A stretch of 64,000 nt of DNA from the NCBI RefSeq assembly GCF_012584455.1, contig NZ_JABAEB010000012.1, forward strand, positions 48,475 through 112,474, written 5' to 3'. The position numbers and the translations under genes were made by a program. The notes under the pieces were generated by a model. The model was not told the origin of the DNA. It saw only the letters and a list, made by a program, of their open reading frames with translations, and made no database searches. This document shows positions 7,524 through 60,882 of the stretch, in pieces (position 1 is the stretch's first letter; every line of letters begins with the position of its first letter). Source of the stretch: Shewanella oncorhynchi (GTDB lineage Bacteria > Pseudomonadota > Gammaproteobacteria > Enterobacterales > Shewanellaceae).

Positions 7524-8265
7524 ACCTGCACCACGTGAGCTAGAAGTGATCCGCTCGACTTATATCACTCCGCATATGTTACGCATCACCTTAGGCGGTG
7601 CGGGATTGGCTGGATTTCCTGTCGATCAAGAGAGTGCCTATATCAAGTTGTTATTCCCACAAGCGGGTGAGCGTCCATTAATGCGAACTTACACTATCCG
7701 TCAGCAACGCGATGATGAAATCGATGTGGATTTTGTGCTGCACGATACCGACGGCCCCGCATCGAGTTGGGCGAAAACGGCGCAGGTGGGCGAACTCATT
7801 CAAATTGGCGGACCCGGACTTAAAAAACTGATCAACTTTGAGGCGGATTGGTTTTTACTCGCAGGTGATATGACAGCCTTGCCCGCCATTAGCGTGAATC
7901 TGGCAAAATTACCAAACAATGCAGTGGGTTACGCTGTGATAGAAGTGCTGAGTGAAGCTGATATTCAACCTCTGGTGCATCCTGAACATGTCGAGCTGCA
8001 TTGGGTGATCAATCCTGAAGCCGATCCCGAAGGTCGCCCTTTGGTTGAGCGAATTGCCCAATTACCTTGGCTTGCTGGCGAGCCAGCCGTATGGATTGCC
8101 TGTGAATTTAATAGCATGCGCGCGTTGAGAAGGCATTTTAAGCAAGCGCATTCATTGCCTAAGAGCCATTTTTATACCTCGAGCTATTGGAAAATCGGTT
8201 GTAACGAAGGTGAGCATAAGCTGGTAAAACAAGAAGATGAACAGTTAGAAAATACTGCAGAGTAG
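7516..8265 (+). CDS. Siderophore-interacting protein (FAD-dependent ferric reductase, SIP/ViuB family)
   Basis: 249 residues, the usual family length. The N-terminal FAD-binding barrel contains RTYTIRQ (the conserved R-x-Y-T/S flavin motif) and VDFVLHDTDGPASSWA, typical of SIP proteins; the C-terminal part contains WFLLAGDMTALPAI, AVIEV and the closing YWKIGCNEGEH. These cytoplasmic enzymes reduce ferric siderophores to release Fe(II), using NAD(P)H or ferredoxin. ATG at 7516 has AGGAGA upstream. It is translationally coupled to marR by an 8-bp overlap. No uptake receptor or Fur box is evident nearby. Confidence 0.9.
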   Translation: MNKPAPRELEVIRSTYITPHMLRITLGGAGLAGFPVDQESAYIKLLFPQAGERPLMRTYTIRQQRDDEIDVDFVLHDTDGPASSWAKTAQVGELIQIGGPGLKKLINFEADWFLLAGDMTALPAISVNLAKLPNNAVGYAVIEVLSEADIQPLVHPEHVELHWVINPEADPEGRPLVERIAQLPWLAGEPAVWIACEFNSMRALRRHFKQAHSLPKSHFYTSSYWKIGCNEGEHKLVKQEDEQLENTAE

Positions 8266-14792: not shown

Positions 14793-16460
14793 ATGGATAA
14801 GCGCCACGACCCAAGCCGCCGCATTATTGCACCGCATGGCACACAATTAAGCTGTAAGAGTTGGCTCACTGAAGCGCCAATGCGTATGTTAATGAACAAC
14901 TTACATCCCGATGTCGCCGAGCGCCCAGAAGACTTAGTCGTCTATGGTGGTATCGGCCGCGCCGCCCGCGATTGGGACTGTTACGACAAAATTATCGAAG
15001 TTTTACAACGCCTCGAAGACGACGAAACCTTATTAGTGCAATCGGGCAAACCTGTGGGCGTATTTCGCACCCATGCGGATGCACCGCGCGTACTGATTGC
15101 TAACTCAAACCTAGTGCCACATTGGGCGAACTGGGAACATTTCAACGAGTTAGATAAGCTAGGTTTGGCCATGTACGGCCAGATGACGGCGGGTTCTTGG
15201 ATCTATATCGGCACTCAAGGCATAGTCCAAGGCACTTACGAGACCTTTGTGTCGGTCGCAAAACAGCACTTTGAGGGTATCTCTAAAGGTAAATGGATCC
15301 TCACTGGCGGGTTAGGCGGCATGGGCGGCGCACAAACGCTGGCAGGCACTATGGCTGGCTTCTCAGTGTTAGCCTGTGAAGTCGACGAAACCCGCATCGA
15401 TTTCCGTCTGCGCACTCGCTATGTTGACAAAAAAGCCACTTCGCTCGATGAAGCATTAGCCATGATTGAAGCAGCGAACCAAGCTGGCAAGCCAGTATCA
15501 GTGGGCTTATTAGCGAACGCCGCCGATGTGTTTGCTGAATTAGTTAAACGCGGCGTTACCCCAGATGTCGTGACCGACCAAACCTCTGCCCATGATCCAT
15601 TAAACGGTTATCTGCCGCAGGGGTGGACTATGGCTGAGGCTGCGGCCATGCGTAAAACCGACGAAGCGGGCGTAGTGAAAGCGGCGAAAGCTTCGATGGC
15701 GGTGCAAGTACAAGCCATGCTCGACCTGCAAACCGCGGGTGCAGCCACGCTCGATTACGGTAACAACATTCGCCAAATGGCGTTTGAAATGGGCGTTGAA
15801 AATGCCTTTGATTTCCCAGGTTTTGTACCTGCTTATATTCGCCCACTGTTCTGTGAAGGCATAGGTCCGTTCCGCTGGGTGGCGTTATCTGGCGATCCCG
15901 AAGATATCTACAAAACCGACGCTAAAGTCAAAGAACTGATCCCAGATAATCCACACCTGCACAATTGGTTAGACATGGCGCGCGAGCGTATCGCCTTCCA
16001 AGGTCTGCCAGCGCGTATTTGCTGGGTTGGCTTAAAAGATCGCGCTCGCTTGGCGTTAGCTTTCAACGAAATGGTTAAAAATGGCGAGTTGTCGGCGCCC
16101 GTGGTAATTGGCCGTGATCACTTAGATTCTGGCTCTGTTGCCAGCCCGAACCGGGAAACCGAATCTATGCTGGACGGCTCAGATGCGGTATCCGATTGGC
16201 CATTGCTGAACGCACTACTTAACACCGCTAGCGGTGCAACTTGGGTGTCGCTGCACCACGGCGGCGGCGTTGGCATGGGCTTTAGCCAACATTCGGGTGT
16301 GGTGATTGTGTGTGACGGTACCGATGCGGCGGCAAAACGGGTTGGCCGCGTGTTGTGGAACGACCCAGCGACAGGCGTGATGCGCCATGCTGATGCGGGC
16401 TACGAGATTGCGAAAAACTGCGCCAAGGAGCAGGGCCTCGATTTACCTATGCAAGACTAG
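14793..16460 (+). CDS. hutU: Urocanate hydratase
   Basis: 555 residues from the ATG at 14793, which has GAGGAAA correctly spaced; an in-frame TTG at 14775 lies upstream of that site and is unlikely. The NAD+-binding loop [11 protein letters not shown] and the Cys-containing segment [13 protein letters not shown] are those of urocanases, which use NAD+ as an electrophile to hydrate urocanate to imidazolonepropionate. It is followed by hutH after 52 bp and probably co-transcribed with it. Confidence 0.97.
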
Positions 16461-16512
16461 CCGATGCTAACGACTCAATAACAATAATAACTAAAAGCTT
16501 GGAGCTAAAAAT

Positions 16513-18054
16513 ATGAAATCTGTGAATCACTTAGTGTTAACGCCGGGCAGCTTGAGCCTAGCGCAATTGCGCGAAATCAGCCGTCATAAGCTGACACTGG
16601 AACTCGCACCAGAGGCTATTACTGATATCAACACCAGTGCGCAAATCGTGCAGAAAGTGTTGGATGAAGGCCGCACTGTTTATGGCATCAACACGGGCTT
16701 TGGCTTGTTGGCCAATACCAAGATAGCGCCCGAAGATCTGCAATTGCTGCAACGTTCTATCGTGTTGTCACATGCCGCAGGTACGGGGCAATACATGCAA
16801 GATGCCACAGTGCGCTTGATGATGGTGTTAAAAATCAACTCATTAAGCCGTGGTTTTTCAGGCATTCGTTTAGAAGTGATTAACTTCTTAATTAGTTTAG
16901 TGAACGCCGAAGTTTATCCCTGCGTGCCAGAAAAAGGTTCAGTCGGTGCCTCGGGTGACTTAGCGCCACTGGCGCACATGTGTTTGCCTATGCTGGGCGA
17001 AGGCGAGATGAGCTATCGAGGCGAGTTAATTTCCGCCGCCGAAGGTTTAGAAATCGCTGGTCTCAAGCCAATCGATTTGGCGGCCAAAGAAGGACTCGCT
17101 TTGCTTAACGGCACGCAAGCGTCGACTGCGCTGGCACTGGAAGGGTTATTCCACGCCGAAGACTTGTTTGCGGCGAGTTCAGTGATCGGTGCCATGAGCG
17201 TCGAAGCCGCTATGGGCAGCCGTAGCCCGTTTGATCCTCGCATCCATGCGGCGCGTGGTCAGAAAGGTCAAATCGATTCGGCCATGGTCTTCCGTCATCT
17301 ACTGGGTGAAGAGTCTGAGATAAGCTTAAGTCATGCTAACTGTGAAAAGGTGCAAGATCCTTACTCACTGCGCTGTCAGCCACAGGTGCTGGGTGCTTGC
17401 TTGACCCAAATTCGTCACGCGGCCGATGTGTTAGGCACAGAGGCCAATGGCGTAACCGATAATCCACTGGTGTTCCAAGATACAGGCGATATCATTTCGG
17501 GCGGTAACTTCCACGCCGAACCCGTGGCTATGGCGGCGGATAATCTGGCGATTGCGATTGCTGAACTGGGCTCCATTGCCGAGCGTCGTATTGCGTTATT
17601 GATCGATTCTAGCCTATCTAAACTGCCGCCATTTTTGGTAAAAAACGGCGGGGTGAACTCGGGCTTTATGATCGCCCAAGTGACGGCGGCGGCATTGGCG
17701 TCTGAGAACAAGACCTACGCTCATCCGGCATCAGTTGACAGCTTGCCAACATCGGCAAACCAAGAAGACCATGTTTCTATGGCGACCTTTGCGGCGCGCC
17801 GCTTGCGCGATATGAGCGAAAATACCCGTGGTGTACTGGCAATTGAATTATTAGCGGCGGCTCAGGGTTTAGATTTCCGCGCTCCTTTAGCCCCAAGTGT
17901 CGCAGTAGCTAAGGCTAAAGCCGAATTACGTGAAGTCGTCGCTTATTACGATAAAGACAGATACTTCGCGCCAGATATCGAAGCCGCGACAGATTTGTTG
18001 TATACAGCGAGCTTTAACACTTATCTGCCTGCAGGAATGCTAGCCAGCTTTTAG
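16513..18054 (+). CDS. hutH: Histidine ammonia-lyase
   Basis: 513 residues, full length. The Ala146-Ser147-Gly148 triad in [15 protein letters not shown] is the precursor of the MIO prosthetic group; YGINTGFG near residue 58 and the TDNPLVF and [10 protein letters not shown] segments are family signatures. It deaminates histidine to urocanate, the first step of the pathway. It is the last gene of the rightward hut unit, with GGAGC before the ATG. Confidence 0.97.
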
Positions 18055-18729: not shown

Positions 18730-21700
18730 ATGAACAGACGCCAGTTTTTTAGACTGTGTGCTGCCGGAGCTGCCACCTCAGCAATTTCAGCGTTGGGATT
18801 GATGTCCGAAAAGGCCTATGCGGCCGTTCGAGAATTCAAACTCATTAGCGCGAAAGAAACCCGCAATAACTGCTGCTATTGCTCAGTGGGTTGCGGATTG
18901 CTGATGTACAGCAAAGGAAGTAACGGCAAAAACGCCGAACAAAGTATTTTCCATATCGAAGGGGATGCAGACCATCCAGTTAACCGCGGGGCCTTGTGTC
19001 CTAAGGGTGCTGGTCTAGTGGATTATGTGAACAGCCCTAATCGTCTTAAATATCCTGAGTACCGTGCGCCAGGCAGTAATGAATGGACTCGTATCAGCTG
19101 GACTGAAGCTTACCAACGCATCGCCCGTCTGATGAAGAATGACCGTGATGCTAACTTGATTGAAAAGAATTCTGCTGGGATGACGGTTAACCGTTGGCTT
19201 AGCACTGGGATGATGACCTCGTCGGCGATGCCGAATGAAGGCGGCTATATCACCCAGAAATTTGCACGGGCACTGGGCCTAGTTGCAATCGATACTATTG
19301 CGCGTAACTGACACTCTCCAACGGTAGCAAGTCTTGCTCCGACATTTGGACGTGGTGCCATGACCAACCACTGGATCGATATTAAAAACTCTAATTTGAT
19401 CATTATTATGGGCGGTAATGCTGCAGAGGCTCACCCTGTCGGATTCGGCTGGGTTACAGAAGCTATGCAACATAACAACGCTAAACTTTTGGTGGTCGAT
19501 CCTCGCTTCACCCGTAGCGCCGCTGTGGCCGATTACTATGCGCCGATCCGCTCGGGCACAGATATCGCCTTCCTGCTCGGGGTGATCCGCTATCTTATTG
19601 AAACCAAACAAGTGAACTACGACTATGTGAAGGCTTATACCAATGCCAGTTACATCGTGCGCGAAGACTTCTCTTTTAGTGAAGGTCTGTTCAGTGGTTT
19701 CGATGAAGAAACAGATAGCTACAATAAAGAGTCTTGGTACTACGAGTTAGACGAACAGGGTTACGCGAAAATCGATCCTAGCTTCGAACATCCACGCTGT
19801 GTGTGGAACTTAATGAAGCAACATGTAGAACGCTATGACTTTGAAACAGTAAGCAATATTACCGGTACGCCGATTGCGGACTATGAGATCGTTTGCCAAC
19901 AAATTGGTAGCACTCATACCCACGATAGAGCCGCAACCTTTATGTATGCCTTAGGTTGGACTCACCACAGTAAAGGGGCGCAGAACATTCGCTCTATGGC
20001 AATGGTGCAGTTGCTGCTGGGTAACATTGGGGTGTTGGGTGGTGGTGTTAACGCTCTGCGAGGACACTCGAACGTGCAAGGCGCGACCGATATGGGTTTA
20101 TTGTGTCAAAGCTTGCCCGGTTACCTCAAGTTGCCGAACGAAAAAGACATTAATCTTAAAACCTATCTCCACAACTATACCCCTGTCGCTCTGCGTCCGG
20201 GTCAAACCAACTATTGGCAAAATTACCCTAAATTCTTTGTTTCGCAAATGAAGAGCTTTTGGGGCGATAACGCTACGGTTGAAAATGACTTTGGTTATGA
20301 CTGGTTGCCGAAATGGGACAAGCAGTACGACTTTACTAAACACTTAGATATGGCTTTCCACGGCGAAGTGAATGGCTACATTATCCAAGGTGTTAACGCC
20401 ATTAACTCTATGCCAAACCGTAATAAGGTACTCAAAGCCTTGAGTAATCTTAAGTACATGGTGGTGTTAGATGCCTTGGCAACGGAAACTGCAACCTTCT
20501 GGCAAAATGCCGATGGCTTCAATGAAGTCAATCCCGCTGAAATCATGACTGAAGTGTTCCGTTTACCTACGACATGTTTTGCCGAGGAAGAAGGTTCCAT
20601 CGTCAACTCTGGCCGTTGGATGCAGTGGCATTGGAAGGGAGCTAACCCGCCGGGTGAAGCCAAGCCAGATGCTGAGATTCTCTCTGGCGTCTTAATGGCA
20701 ATGCGTGAACTGTACAAACAAGAGGGCGGTAAGCTGCCTGAGCCTGTACATGCGATGAGCTGGAATTACCACAATCCTCACTCACCGCACGCTGAAGAAA
20801 TCGCTCGCGAGCTTAACGGTAAGGATCTCGTGACTCAACGTCAGCTCAGTAGTTTTGCTGAACTGAAAGCCGATGGTAGTACCGCCAGCGCCTGTTGGAT
20901 TTATGCGGGTTCTTGGACCGAAGAAGGCAACTTGATGGCTCGCCGTGACAACCATGATCCTTCGGGTAAAGGTATTACTCCGGGTTGGGCATTTGCTTGG
21001 CCAGCAAACCGTCGTGTGCTGTATAACCGCGCTTCTTGCGATATCAACGGCAAACCTTGGGATCCAAAACGCACTATCGTCGAGTGGGTTGACGGTAAGT
21101 GGCACGGTATCGATGTGGGCGACTTCAATATGAAGTTAACACCACAGGAATCCGCTGGCCCCTTCATCATGCAACCCGAAGGTGTGGGTCGTTTCTTCGC
21201 CCTTAAATTATTGGCCGAAGGTCCGTTCCCTGAGCACTACGAGCCGATGGAGTCGCCTATTGGGTTGAACCCGTTACACAAGGTCACCAGTAACCCTGCG
21301 GTACGTATGTTACCGGGTGTGAAGGAAACCTTAGGTTCCCATAAGGACTTCCCTTATGTGGCAACTACTTACTGTGTAACTGAACACTTTAACTTCTGGT
21401 CTACGCATGCTCGTTTAGCTGCGATTTCTATGCCTGAAACCTTCGTCGAAATCGATGAAATGTTAGCGGCAGAAAAAGGTATCGCCAATGGGGATTGGGT
21501 CACTGTCAGCTCTAAACGCGGCAGCATTGAAACCAAAGCCTTAGTGACTAAACGGCTACAGCCGTTAAAGGTAAATGGCCAGTTAGTCCATACCGTCGGG
21601 TTACCCCGTCACGGCAGCCATAATGCACTCACTCGTAAGAGTTACTCCTGTAACGTACTCACCACGGAAGTGGGGGATGCAAATACACAGGTGCCTGAGT

Positions 21701-24288: not shown

Positions 24289-25719
24289 ATGACACAGATG
24301 ATGACCCAAGCACCTGAAACACTACAAGTTCTGTACCGAGCTTTGCCTTCAATGGATAGCCTACTTGCAGAGCCTAGTTTTGTGGTATTGCAGCAGTCCT
24401 ACGGCAAAGCGGCGGTAAAGGCCGCACTGGATACCCAGTTAAAGGCGGCGCGCAGCTTAATCGGCCGCGAGCACCGTTTGCCGACATGGTGTGGTGAGCT
24501 TGCGCAATTGCATAGATGTTTGGTTGATCAACTGTCTAATGATTACAGCCACAGCTTAAAACCCGTGTGGAATCTCACTGGCACCATATTGCATACCAAC
24601 CTTGGCCGAGCGCAACAGTCAGAAGCGGCAATTCGAGCCGTGACTTCTGTTATGCGCTACCCCACACCGCTGGAGTTTGAGCTTGCGGCAGGTGAACGTG
24701 GTCACAGGGATAATGCGATCAGTGCTTTGATCCAGCGCTTAACGGGTGCCGAGGCTTGTTGTGTTGTGAATAACAATGCCGCAGCTGTGTTGTTGATGCT
24801 GTCAGCGGTGGCTGCGGGGAAAGAAGTCATAGTCTCCCGTGGTGAGTTGGTGGAAATTGGCGGCGCGTTTCGCATCCCTGACATTATGCGCCAAGCGGGC
24901 TGCACCTTAGTCGAGGTCGGCAGCACCAATCGGACTCACCTTAAGGATTATGAGCAGGCCATTACTGAAAATACCGCTGCGATAATGAAGGTCCACACCA
25001 GTAATTATCATATTAGTGGTTTTACTGCCGCAGTGGAGGAGGCAAGGCTGGGTCAGTTATGCCGTGAGCGTGGCATATCACTCATTTCAGATCTTGGCAG
25101 CGGTTCACTTACTGATCTGCGCCGCTTTGGTCTAAAGCAAGAACCTACGCCCCAAGCCATGCTAGCCGATGGGGTTGATCTAGTCAGTTTTTCCGGCGAC
25201 AAACTATTGGGTGGCCCTCAGTCTGGTTTGATCGTTGGCAAACAGTCGCTGATTAAGCAGTTACAGAGTCATCCACTAAAGCGCGCCCTGCGTTGCGATA
25301 AGCTGATTTTGGCGGCGTTAGAAGCGACATTGATCCACTATCTTAACCCTGAAACCTTAGACATTGAGCTGCCTATTATGGCGAAATTTGCCCGTAGCCA
25401 AGAGACGTTATGGCAGATTGGTCGTCGCTTACAGCAAGCTTTGGTTCCACATTTTGAACCTTGTTATCGCATTGAGTTAGTCGAGTGCCAAACACAGGTC
25501 GGCAGTGGCTCACAGCCCGATACTTTTTTACCCTCAGTGGCGTTGTGTTTTACCGCACTCAATGGCGGTAGTTTAAGTTTGTTAGAACAACAATTTAAGC
25601 AGGCGGCACGGCCTATCATAGGTCGCATGAGTCAGGACCAACTCAGGTTAGATCTGCGCGGTCTTGATAGTGAAGCTGAACTCCTCGCCGAGTTGAGTAC
25701 GTTAGGTGTGCAGTTGTGA
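24289..25719 (+). CDS. selA: L-seryl-tRNA(Sec) selenium transferase
   Basis: 476 residues. The PLP-dependent fold is clear, with the Schiff-base Lys in [15 protein letters not shown], and the substrate region [14 protein letters not shown] near residue 88 is a family signature. SelA converts Ser-tRNA(Sec) to Sec-tRNA(Sec) with selenophosphate. ATG at 24289; a second in-frame Met at 24298 is possible. It overlaps selB by 4 bp (GTGATC). Confidence 0.95.
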
Positions 25720-27761
25720 TCATTGTGACTGCGGGTCATGTCGATCATGGCAAGAGTACGCTTATTCGCGCTTTGACTGGGATGAATACCGATCGTCTGC
25801 CGGAGGAAAAACGCCGTGGTATGACGATCGATCTTGGCTATGCGTTTATGCCACTTCGAGATGGTTCGCGGCTTGCTTTTATTGATGTGCCCGGCCACGA
25901 AAAATTTATCAACAACATGCTGGTGGGCGTGAGTCATGCTCGACACGCCCTGTTGGTGATGGCCTGTGACGATGGCGTAATGCCGCAAACCCGTGAGCAT
26001 CTGCAAATTCTTGCGCTCTTACCTTTGCACAGTTTGACCTTAGTGCTAACTAAACGGGATTTAGTTGATAGTGGTACGGCGGCACAGCTTGTCGCCGATG
26101 GACTTACTTTGCTCGCCGAGTATGGCATTGAGGCCAGTGGTGTTTTTGAAGTGTCGGCGAATGGCACCGCCGACTTAGCATCTCATGGCGTGGCGGCGCT
26201 GAAGGCGCATATTCTTGATTTAGGTGAGCAAGAGTCAAAGCGGGCGGAGGATGCCAGCAGCTTTAGGATGACGCTCGATCGCGCCTTTAGTGTTAAAGGT
26301 GCGGGGTGTGTCGTAACTGGCACAGTGATCAGCGGCAGCGTATGTGTGGGGGATAGTCTTTTTAGCTCAGGGCAAAAGGCCAAACTCAGAGTGCGAGGCA
26401 TACATTGTCAGGGACAAGAAGCCCAAAGGGCTGTCACAGGTACACGCGTAGCACTCAATTTAACGGGTGTCGATAACCATAGGGAGCCAGAGCGTGGCGA
26501 TTGGCTGAGCAGTTTGCCTCAAGCAGAGCTCTGTAGCCGCCCCGTTGTGCACATTCGAGCCTTCGATTTTTTAGGCTGTGAGTCATTAGTGCATTGGCAA
26601 AATGTCCACTGTCATCATGGCGCCGATCATACTTTAGGTCGAGTTTCCCTTTTAAATGAAGCTGATGAAGAAGGCTTCTGTCTGGCTGAGTTGGTACTCG
26701 AAAAGCCACTACTCCTATGCCAAGACGATCGAATTGTCCTGCGACACATTGGAGGTAAACAGACTTTAGGTGCGGGGCGAGTGTTGGCGCTGAAAGTCCC
26801 AAATCGTAAGAAACGTACACCTGAACGCGTCGCGAGATTACTGCAATTAGCACGCTTGGATAATCCTGCCCATGTGGTGGCTTTACTCGGCCAAACTCAG
26901 GCGCTAGAGCTTGATGAAATCGCGTGGCGTTGGCAATTAACCGACGAAGGGCTGGCAATGCTGTTAGCCCAAGCGGGTTTAGTTCGTTTTGGGGCATTTG
27001 CTATAGCGACAAGTTTACTTGAGCAAGAAAAACAACAGTTTATTACTTTACTTAGCGAGTTCCATCAACAGCATCCCGACCAACTTGGGCTGGGACGTAA
27101 TCGCCTGCAACGCATGAGCCATAGCGCTTTGCCGCCCGAATTAGCCAATAAAGTGCTCGACACGCTTTGCCAAGAGGGACGCATGGTATTGCGTGGCGCC
27201 CTGTTGCAATTGGCCGAGCACAAAATAGTGCTAGATGCTGAGGCGCAGCATTGTTGGCAGGCACTTGCGCCTTGGCTTGCCGAGCAAACCGCTCCTGTAT
27301 GGGTCACCGAAATGGGCGAATACCTTGAGCTTGAACCTGCCAAATTAAGGTTGTTGTGTTTCCAGCTGGTGCAGCAGGGGTTTATTACTGCTGTGGTGAA
27401 GGACAGATATTTGCTCAGCGAGCAAATCTGTTACTACGCCAGCTTAGTACGTACTCATATTGCAGAACACGGCAAGCTCGAAACGGCAGAATTTAAAGAC
27501 ATGGTTGGGCTTGGGCGTAAGGTGAGTATTCAACTGCTTGAGTTCTTTGACAGAAGTGGTTTTACCCGTAGGAAGTATCGCAGTAATAGCCGAGAAGTTC
27601 GGGATGCGGAGTTGTTTTTTTCCCATGAGAATTGGCGGAAGAACATAGGAGTCGAACCTACCCAGGACTGCTGGCAGCCCTACCCGGATTTGAAATCCGG
27701 ACGCCTCACCGGAGACGACGTTCTTCCAATAGAAGACCTAGGGATAGTAGAAAATGCGTAA
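25716..27761 (+). CDS. selB: Selenocysteine-specific elongation factor SelB with antisense-encoded tail
   Basis: 681 residues from the GTG/ATG-type start overlapping selA. The GTPase has GHVDHGKST (G1), DVPGHEKF (G3) and LTKRD (G4); EF-Tu-like beta domains and winged helices ending [22 protein letters not shown] follow, the last being the SECIS-binding domain. E. coli SelB ends soon after the equivalent RDALLF segment. Here RDAELFF is followed by about 45 extra residues, encoded by the strand opposite the tRNA-Sec gene (27633-27727), before the stop at 27759. The tail is probably a by-product of the overlap rather than a functional domain. Confidence 0.94.
27633..27727 (-). tRNA. selC: tRNA-Sec (anticodon TCA), antisense within selB 3' end
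   Basis: 95 nt on the minus strand, the length of E. coli selC, and very close to it in sequence. It starts GGAAGAAC (8-bp acceptor stem, complement at 27637-27644), has the D-arm CTCCGGTGAGGCG, the anticodon stem CCGGATT-TCA-AATCCGG (anticodon at 27691-27693), a long variable arm (GGGCTGCCAGCAGTCC) and the T-arm GGTTCGACTCC. It ends with discriminator G and encoded CCA. Confidence 0.97.
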
Positions 27762-27772
27762 AGATGATTCAA
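27744..27772 (-). promoter_or_regulatory. Predicted sigma-70 promoter of selC
   Basis: On the minus strand, TTGAAT (27767-27772) is separated by 17 bp from TACTAT (27744-27749). The expected start is about 10 nt before the tRNA 5' end. It overlaps the selB stop codon region. Confidence 0.65.
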
Positions 27773-27868
27773 GGCGATTCTTATTTAGTTTATGGGTTTG
27801 TGATACAAGTCTTAAATTGTCATCAAACTAATTGTTTTTATTTGGTTTTATAGTTTTAAAGGGGCGCT

Positions 27869-28705
27869 ATGGAATATCATTCACATGAAGTGGTGACAGA
27901 AAGAAACGTGATCTTGTTAGAACATGGGCACGCATCTGAGCTGACAGACTACTTAGCTAATGAAGTGCGGGTCGCACTGGTCTATAACGGCATAGCGCAT
28001 ACCGTGATGTTGGCGAGCCCTCAAGATTTAGAAGCCTTCGCTATTGGTTTTACGTTATCTGAACGTATCGTTTCCCATATCAATGATATCAAAGGGGTGG
28101 AGCTCGAGTTCACCAGTGAAGGCGTGTTGATCCAAGTGGAAATCAACCAACGATGCTTTATGGAACTCAAGCAACAAAGGCGCAATATGGCGGGGCGCAC
28201 AGGTTGTGGATTGTGCGGTGTTGCCCAGCTCGAAGAGGCCGTCAAGCCTGTGATGCGGGTGGACTCAGATGCTAGATTCGATATCGAACACTTACAGGTC
28301 GCACTTGGGCAAATTAAAGATAATCAACAACATTTTAAGCTGACGGGTGCCACTCATGCGGCCATGGGGCTTAACCATCAAGGACAGATCATCGCCGCCT
28401 ATGAGGATATAGGCAGGCATATCGCACTAGACAAGCTAATTGGCGCCTTTTCCGCTCACAATGTGGAACGTCCAGTGGCCGTATTGCTCACCAGTCGCGC
28501 GAGTTTTGAGATGGTGCAAAAGGCCGCTAGTGCCAATATCCAAATTCTGTTTGCTATGTCCGCCGTGACTTCACTGGCGTTGGAATTAGCAGAGAAAAGC
28601 AATATCACGCTTATCGGTTTTTGCCGTAATGGCAGGGCAACGCTTTACACCCACGGTTATCGCCTGTTGGGGCAGCAGTGTGTCAGCTTAGCTAAAGCCA
28701 TTTAA
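27869..28705 (+). CDS. fdhD: Formate dehydrogenase sulfurtransferase FdhD
   Basis: 278 residues. The redox/sulfur-carrying pair is visible in GRTGCGLCGV near residue 112, and AYEDIGRHIALDKLIGA is the conserved nucleotide/Moco-binding region. FdhD takes persulfide sulfur from IscS and sulfurates the bis-MGD cofactor before insertion into formate dehydrogenase. ATG at 27869 with AAAGGGG upstream. It lies 107 bp after selB and before the yedEF pairs, tying sulfur transfer to the selenoenzyme operon. Confidence 0.94.
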   Translation: MEYHSHEVVTERNVILLEHGHASELTDYLANEVRVALVYNGIAHTVMLASPQDLEAFAIGFTLSERIVSHINDIKGVELEFTSEGVLIQVEINQRCFMELKQQRRNMAGRTGCGLCGVAQLEEAVKPVMRVDSDARFDIEHLQVALGQIKDNQQHFKLTGATHAAMGLNHQGQIIAAYEDIGRHIALDKLIGAFSAHNVERPVAVLLTSRASFEMVQKAASANIQILFAMSAVTSLALELAEKSNITLIGFCRNGRATLYTHGYRLLGQQCVSLAKAI

Positions 28706-60280: not shown

Positions 60281-60471
60281 GGTTAATATCCTTAAATAAA
60301 CGACATTGGAATATCCAGAATCAGGGCGTGCAGAAATACAACGTAATCAAACCAAAAGGCTCGATTTTGCTGTAGCAATATCACTTCACTTGGGGTGAAG
60401 TTATTGCAAAACATGAGGCTAACACTGCAATACATAAGCGCGTTGCACTTAAATACCGCAAGGTGTTGTCT

Positions 60472-60697
60472 TACATTCTCTTCCATCCGGACTCAGCACT
60501 GTTGCCATTAAAGCAAACAGTCCATTACCGTCGGCTCTGGAATAGTCAGTTTTGCACTAAGCAAAATCTAAGGCACCAGATCTGCTGACCCCGAAAGTGA
60601 TTTCGGGCGCTCGCGGGCTTTGGGTGTCGCTCAGCAAAATAATCACTTAGTCGTTACCCATTTACCGCCGGTGGGGAGTTTCACCCCGCCCTGAGAA
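60472..60697 (-). promoter_or_regulatory. FMN riboswitch (RFN element) controlling ribB
   Basis: On the minus strand the RNA starts ctcagggcggggtgaaa and continues ccccaccggcggtaa, the invariant 5' part of RFN, and closes with gagtccggatggaagagaa, the invariant 3' part. The interval holds the expected side stems, including a long variable arm (about 60540-60640). Confidence 0.96.
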
Positions 60698-60882
60698 TTT
60701 GCTTTTGAGCCATTTGCGCTCAAAAACGCGGTTATGTTGCTCTTATTTACCGCGAATGGCAACTTCTCGCGTTCAATGTTTGCGCTAGTGCACACCTGAC
60801 CACTATCATACTGAACACATAAGCTAATTGACTTGCCGTCGCATTCTTCGACGGTCGTTATGGACGTCACAAGGACGTATAA

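Follow-up and report, generated by a model that had tools for sequence, protein, structure and literature searches.

The tRNA-Sec gene selC lies antisense within the 3' end of selB in Shewanella: an overlap of variable frame with a most likely ordinary explanation

The window, by which we mean the whole analyzed stretch of 64,000 nt, contains a single tRNA gene according to ARAGORN, a tRNA-Sec with the anticodon TCA on the minus strand (selC, Table 1). Its match to the tRNA-Sec model RF01852 extended over the full length (1-91) and scored 82.5 bits, above the gathering score of 47; no non-standard pairs were marked in the alignment, and the fold was intact. The UCA anticodon, the extended acceptor/T and D arms and the long variable arm that characterize the family were all present; such a tRNA would be charged with serine, which would then be converted to selenocysteine (Sec). 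The CCA end is encoded, its complement being a TGG at 27633-27635 that forms selB codon 640 (Trp), and a Pro codon (CCA) is found at 27726-27728. A preliminary description of this DNA had claimed a complete tRNA-Sec gene on the minus strand, with CCA and TCA anticodon, wholly within the selB reading frame, and ARAGORN, the covariance model and a frame check all bore this out. In the genome harboring the window (5.03 Mb, 26 contigs), selC was the sole RF01852 match above the cut-off. Four matches of 46.3 bits fell below it, and the three that were checked were all tRNA-Ser(TGA). A second selC elsewhere in this genome, with a degenerate copy at this locus, is thus unsupported.

Table 1. Features at the selB-selC locus (positions within the window).
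Feature	Position	Strand	Basis
selA-like gene, upstream, overlaps selB start	24289..25719	+	ORF; homologue data
selB, elongation factor SelB, 681 codons, GTG start overlapping selA stop	25716..27761	+	ORF; Pfam
C-terminal extension of selB (codons 640-681), antisense to selC and its promoter	27633..27758	+	frame check; pLDDT
selC, tRNA-Sec, UCA anticodon, encoded CCA	27633..27727	-	ARAGORN; RF01852 82.5 bits
141-bp region between the divergent selC and fdhD, into which the last selB codons extend	27728..27868	.	fdhD starts; alignment
putative selC promoter TTGAAT-17-TACTAT, 16 nt before tRNA	27744..27772	-	sequence; pattern in 51/52 rows
fdhD-like gene, downstream of selB	27869..28705	+	ORF; same-strand homologue in 51/51 rows

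The selB frame (681 aa) ends with a TAA at 27759-27761. The Pfam models GTP_EFTU, Beta-barrel_SelB, SelB-wing_2, SelB_WH_2nd_bact and SelB-wing_3 matched the protein above their cut-offs, and GTP_EFTU_D2 was under its own (27.6 vs 30.3), so the GTPase, beta-barrel and winged-helix domains of a SelB elongation factor are all present. The last match, SelB-wing_3, ends at residue 620. The C-terminal tail comprises 42 residues (640-681), about 32 of them opposite the tRNA and about 10 opposite its leader and promoter. An extension of roughly the length previously claimed (about 45 residues) therefore exists, while the claim that all of it is read opposite the tRNA did not hold. The nearest named relatives of this SelB are from Shewanella. 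We take the neighboring open reading frames to be selA-like (upstream) and fdhD-like (downstream); a selA homologue preceded selB in 8 of 10 loci searched, and the other two loci were too short to contain it. A SECIS_3 element (RF01989, 72.8 bits) is located at 19306-19364, some 6 kb upstream of selB, which fits a Sec-containing formate dehydrogenase encoded in the same cluster. The window also holds an FMN riboswitch (RF00050, 79.8 bits) on the minus strand at 60471-60702.

Upstream of selC, the hexamers TTGAAT (27772-27767) and TACTAT (27749-27744) are separated by 17 nt on the minus strand, and the selB stop lies inside this spacer. The preliminary description had called this a good sigma-70 promoter straddling the selB stop. 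Hexamers, spacing and position were as described, but "good" was not justified: only 8 of 12 positions match the consensus, and when the 60 nt upstream were shuffled 100 times, 38 of the shuffled versions scored as well. Consensus scans for promoters (threshold 9) and terminators between 27200 and 28000 detected nothing. Among relatives, the pattern TTG-N3-N17-TANNNT ending 13-16 nt before the tRNA was present in 51 of 52 rows, against 0.14 expected from mononucleotide shuffles, a figure that is not a formal p-value since the pattern was written after viewing the sequences, single bases were shuffled and the rows are related. The 52 rows represent 51 distinct loci, because S. marina was counted twice (L016, L095). 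The pattern occurs in each of the overlap classes described below, and the single miss is a relocated selC. The position of the putative selC promoter is thus conserved among relatives, and the promoter is unremarkable in single sequences.

An fdhD homologue follows selB on the same strand in all 51 rows, in 49 of them beyond selC and head-to-head with it. Extrapolated from tblastn, the fdhD start lay 118-158 bp from selC in 40 of the 51 rows; nine others had it at 290-298 bp. When 26 chosen rows of the selC/fdhD region were aligned, the -10, the -35 and a TGTGA block proved conserved. The TGTGA block, within 27790-27868 in the window and seen in most of the 26 rows, is possibly a CRP half-site. 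Terminator-like sites within 150 nt after selC were found in 1 of 52 rows of the window type (1.9 expected from shuffles). After other tRNA-Sec genes that do not adjoin a selB 3' end they were found in 6 of 61 rows (1.9 expected), and after forward-linked tRNA-Sec genes in 2 of 7. The near-absence of terminators means that selC transcripts may run into selB, but it says little by itself, since terminators are also rare after other tRNA-Sec genes.

We compared the locus among relatives, of which 80 of 93 were kept; order-wide loci were taken from part of the 87 genomes with a tRNA-Sec match. The genus was taken as Shewanella on the basis of the named relatives of SelB and of 11 SelBs identical over the last 400 residues to named Shewanella. 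The tree and the row counts for promoter, terminator and fdhD exclude 11 duplicate SelBs. A tRNA-Sec was found at E ≤ 1e-10 in 49 of 129 genomes of the genus, and 48 of these have the selC type of the window. In 25 of the 48 genomes selB reads through the whole tRNA as in the window (frame A), in 18 it stops 22 nt inside the tRNA (frame B), and in one it stops 15 nt inside (frame C). The selB stop precedes the tRNA in three genomes. These classes were assigned for 47 rows; in the remaining genome (G020) selC is relocated to the other end of the cluster, before fdh-like ORFs and about 8 kb upstream of selB. Some overlap of selB and selC therefore exists in 44 of 48 genomes. The full read-through of the window was confirmed for 25 genomes in this comparison of SelB C termini, and it is not a general rule, as 23 of 48 differ. 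Frame A also occurred in two genomes (G129, G134; L116, L161) from a different genus of this family. In S. marina (L016) fdhD sits between selB and selC, and at a Photobacterium locus (L018) selB stops about 160 nt before the tRNA.

At the locus with the relocated selC (L201; selC at 7585-7679, selB at 15676-17841) the C-terminal tail of SelB differs, and a search of it for a tRNA remnant gave just chance matches of 7-8 nt. Five genomes (G110, G058, G085, G028, G014; L156-L160) have a second, shorter tRNA-Sec of 92 nt by ARAGORN, on the same strand as another selB-like gene and upstream of its start. G058 is the only one of the 49 genomes with solely this type; the other four also have the type of the window and so seem to hold two selenocysteine sets.

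On the antisense strand of the tRNA the three frames are not equally open. Among 63 rows of window-type tRNAs, which include duplicates and both overlapping and non-overlapping loci and represent 20 distinct sequences, frame A was open in all 63, frame B in 37 and frame C in none. Frame B is closed by A57 of the T-loop, the complement of which yields TGA. The selB stop of class B is accordingly a UGA derived from T-loop nt 55-57 (usual numbering) in 18 genomes. All 18 class-B rows have A57, and 26 of 27 class-A rows (without duplicates) have G57. A57 is also found in the class-C row, in five rows with the stop before the tRNA and in the relocated selC, and other tRNA-Sec rows of 95-97 nt (n = 45; two from Acetobacterium, the rest from the order) comprise 30 with G57 and 15 with A57. 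Because of shared ancestry, we regard the relation of nt 57 to class as an association rather than as proof of constraint. Programmed Sec readthrough of the class-B UGA was considered as well. Rfam (E up to 10) detected no SECIS-like element after this UGA at the one locus searched (L140), and the frame beyond it ends at variable positions 20-102 nt past the tRNA (18 rows). We therefore dropped this possibility.

Is the SelB tail selected as protein? A SelB tree of 58 rows was calculated with IQ-TREE in quick mode from sequences cut at the core end, thus excluding the tail; two Acetobacterium rows (L024 and L036) were left out. The states A, B, C, none and unlinked required five changes on this tree, in which several placements of long rows are unsure. 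State A alone required three changes, two of them forced by starred branches, and it has persisted within a single clade comprising 25 distinct SelBs. Beyond the tRNA, frame-A stops follow at 13, 19, 34, 37, 40 or 58 nt (27 rows), and differences at codon positions 1/2/3 amounted to 0.29/0.26/0.20 (23 frame-A rows, pairs at least 60% alike), compared with 0.08/0.04/0.39 for the core of SelB. Class B, in which this stretch is untranslated, gave 0.08/0.08/0.23 there in the same register; the codon-position test is thus coarse. Within the tRNA, counted column by column over 11 distinct frame-A tRNAs, frame A showed four synonymous, three non-synonymous and one nonsense change, and the other two frames showed 2/6/0 and 1/6/1, respectively. 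These counts lean towards protein constraint, with too few changes to judge. The AlphaFold2 model of SelB had a mean pLDDT of 83.7, with values below 50 for the last 37 residues (645-681), which is weak evidence, as few of the 27 rows in its alignment (26 of them chosen from the 80 retained relatives) have the tail. Since the frame varies, a third-position excess is lacking, pLDDT is low and all 63 tRNA rows leave frame A open anyway, the extension is not a conserved protein feature. On this evidence, the tail is mostly not selected as protein.

We consider it probable that the overlap arose in a compact fdh-sel cluster in which the selB stop drifts into or past selC, and that the 42-residue tail is a tolerated by-product; the feature is real, and its most likely explanation is ordinary. 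Within this cluster, the minus-strand selC separates selB, to which it is oriented tail-to-tail, from fdhD, which it adjoins head-to-head. It would be transcribed leftwards from its own putative promoter; RNase P would process the 5' end of its transcript, and the 3' end would be trimmed. From a selA-selB-fdhD mRNA, selB would be translated to the next stop. As relatives end sooner, SelB seems to need nothing past its last winged-helix domain, and the stop may have drifted for this reason. Depending on the frame, the next stop would be reached beyond the tRNA (A), inside it (B, C) or before it, and the tail of 42 residues is possible because the antisense strand of the tRNA is open in frame A. 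What preserves the linkage is probably that these genes come and go together and that selC and fdhD would share an intergenic promoter region. In favor of a drifting stop, a single genus shows three entry frames as well as non-overlap (frame A in 25 genomes, B in 18, C in 1, no overlap in 3 and a relocated selC in 1). Against it, most genomes (44 of 48) have some overlap, which exceeds what one might expect of an accident that is simply tolerated, and frame A persists in the clade of 25 distinct SelBs with tRNA changes leaning to constraint.

The physical linkage and convergent orientation of selB and selC, as claimed in the preliminary description, were confirmed by the conserved gene order, and from this layout coupling by collision or antisense pairing is possible. 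Transcription of selC would then limit SelB, and a selB-fdhD mRNA would pair with or block tRNA-Sec, keeping the two in balance. Convergence with a 3' overlap in 44 of 48 genomes and the conserved promoter pattern are consistent with such reciprocal action, as is possible read-in from selC to selB, and cis-antisense action was suggested before by Mukai 2021 (PMC8124441). We nevertheless consider it unlikely. With fdhD beyond selC in 49 rows, a selB-fdhD mRNA, if made, carries the complement of the tRNA wherever selB stops, so the overlap of reading frames is not what would create antisense pairing, and mutual restraint of the transcripts would be independent of the stop. A folded tRNA pairs poorly with its complement. 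The rarity of terminators after other tRNA-Sec genes counts against the read-in argument, and a literature search by abstract openings found no expression data. Still less likely, and rather improbable, is that the tail-to-tail overlap is a feedback device, in which transcription of selC and transcription of selB-fdhD hold each other back and SelB is kept from exceeding Sec-tRNA. In class B, the tRNA sequence also sets the UGA stop of its own delivery factor.

A functional role of the extension, such as SECIS or tRNA binding, would fit with its long life in one clade and with four of eight tRNA changes being synonymous in frame A, compared with two and one in the other frames. We regard this as very improbable, as 23 of 48 genomes either lack the extension or have selB in another frame, its end is variable, and both codon positions and predicted order speak against it. 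An artefact, a dead tRNA copy or an assembly error in the frame, can practically be dismissed, as we found no point in its support, selC is the sole match over the cut-off with an intact fold, and the arrangement recurs in dozens of other assemblies and in print.

If the arrangement is regulatory, it would offer a simple way to keep an elongation factor in balance with its only cognate tRNA. Otherwise, it is a clear natural example of a single stretch of DNA that encodes a tRNA and, on the opposite strand, alternative protein ends in three frames, and a warning against reading function into C-terminal extensions opposite tRNA genes.

The location of selC antisense within the 3' end of selB is real and already published. 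A reversed tRNA-Sec overlapping selB was described for Shewanella and a few Ferrimonas, together with a corresponding selC promoter (Mukai 2021, PMC8124441, section 2.4 and legend of Fig. 5B). Compared with these parts of the paper, the window is alike in strand relation, in the extension running from Trp (TGG) to Pro and in the promoter around the selB stop, with the whole tRNA-Sec complement in the selB frame; no difference was found. Our search of abstract openings recovered this as the sole paper on the arrangement, which may be mentioned within other papers, and we recognized no follow-up or transcript data among the results. Four points go beyond the consulted text of Mukai 2021: the entry of selB in frames B and C, the stop written by the T-loop in 18 genomes, the relocation of selC and the conservation of the divergent selC/fdhD region. 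In one family of the order (f25), two loci (L164 and L166; G232, G469) show a forward selB-selC overlap with the stop TAA at tRNA nt 7-9, which is absent from that portion of the text as well; in their relatives L165 and L167 selB stops 47 and 58 nt before the tRNA. The forward nested genes of Alphaproteobacteria (sections 2.1-2.2 of the same paper) likewise have selC inside the selB frame, but on the same strand, and tRNA processing was proposed to cut the selB mRNA. Since the strands are opposite in the window, this processing switch is inapplicable here. The partial forward overlaps of Dyella/Luteibacter and Nitrospirae (section 2.3), with the selB stop inside the tRNA, are comparable in kind to class B, although both genes are there on the same strand, with the stop at tRNA nt 46-48 in Dyella/Luteibacter, whereas in the genus of the window they are on opposite strands.
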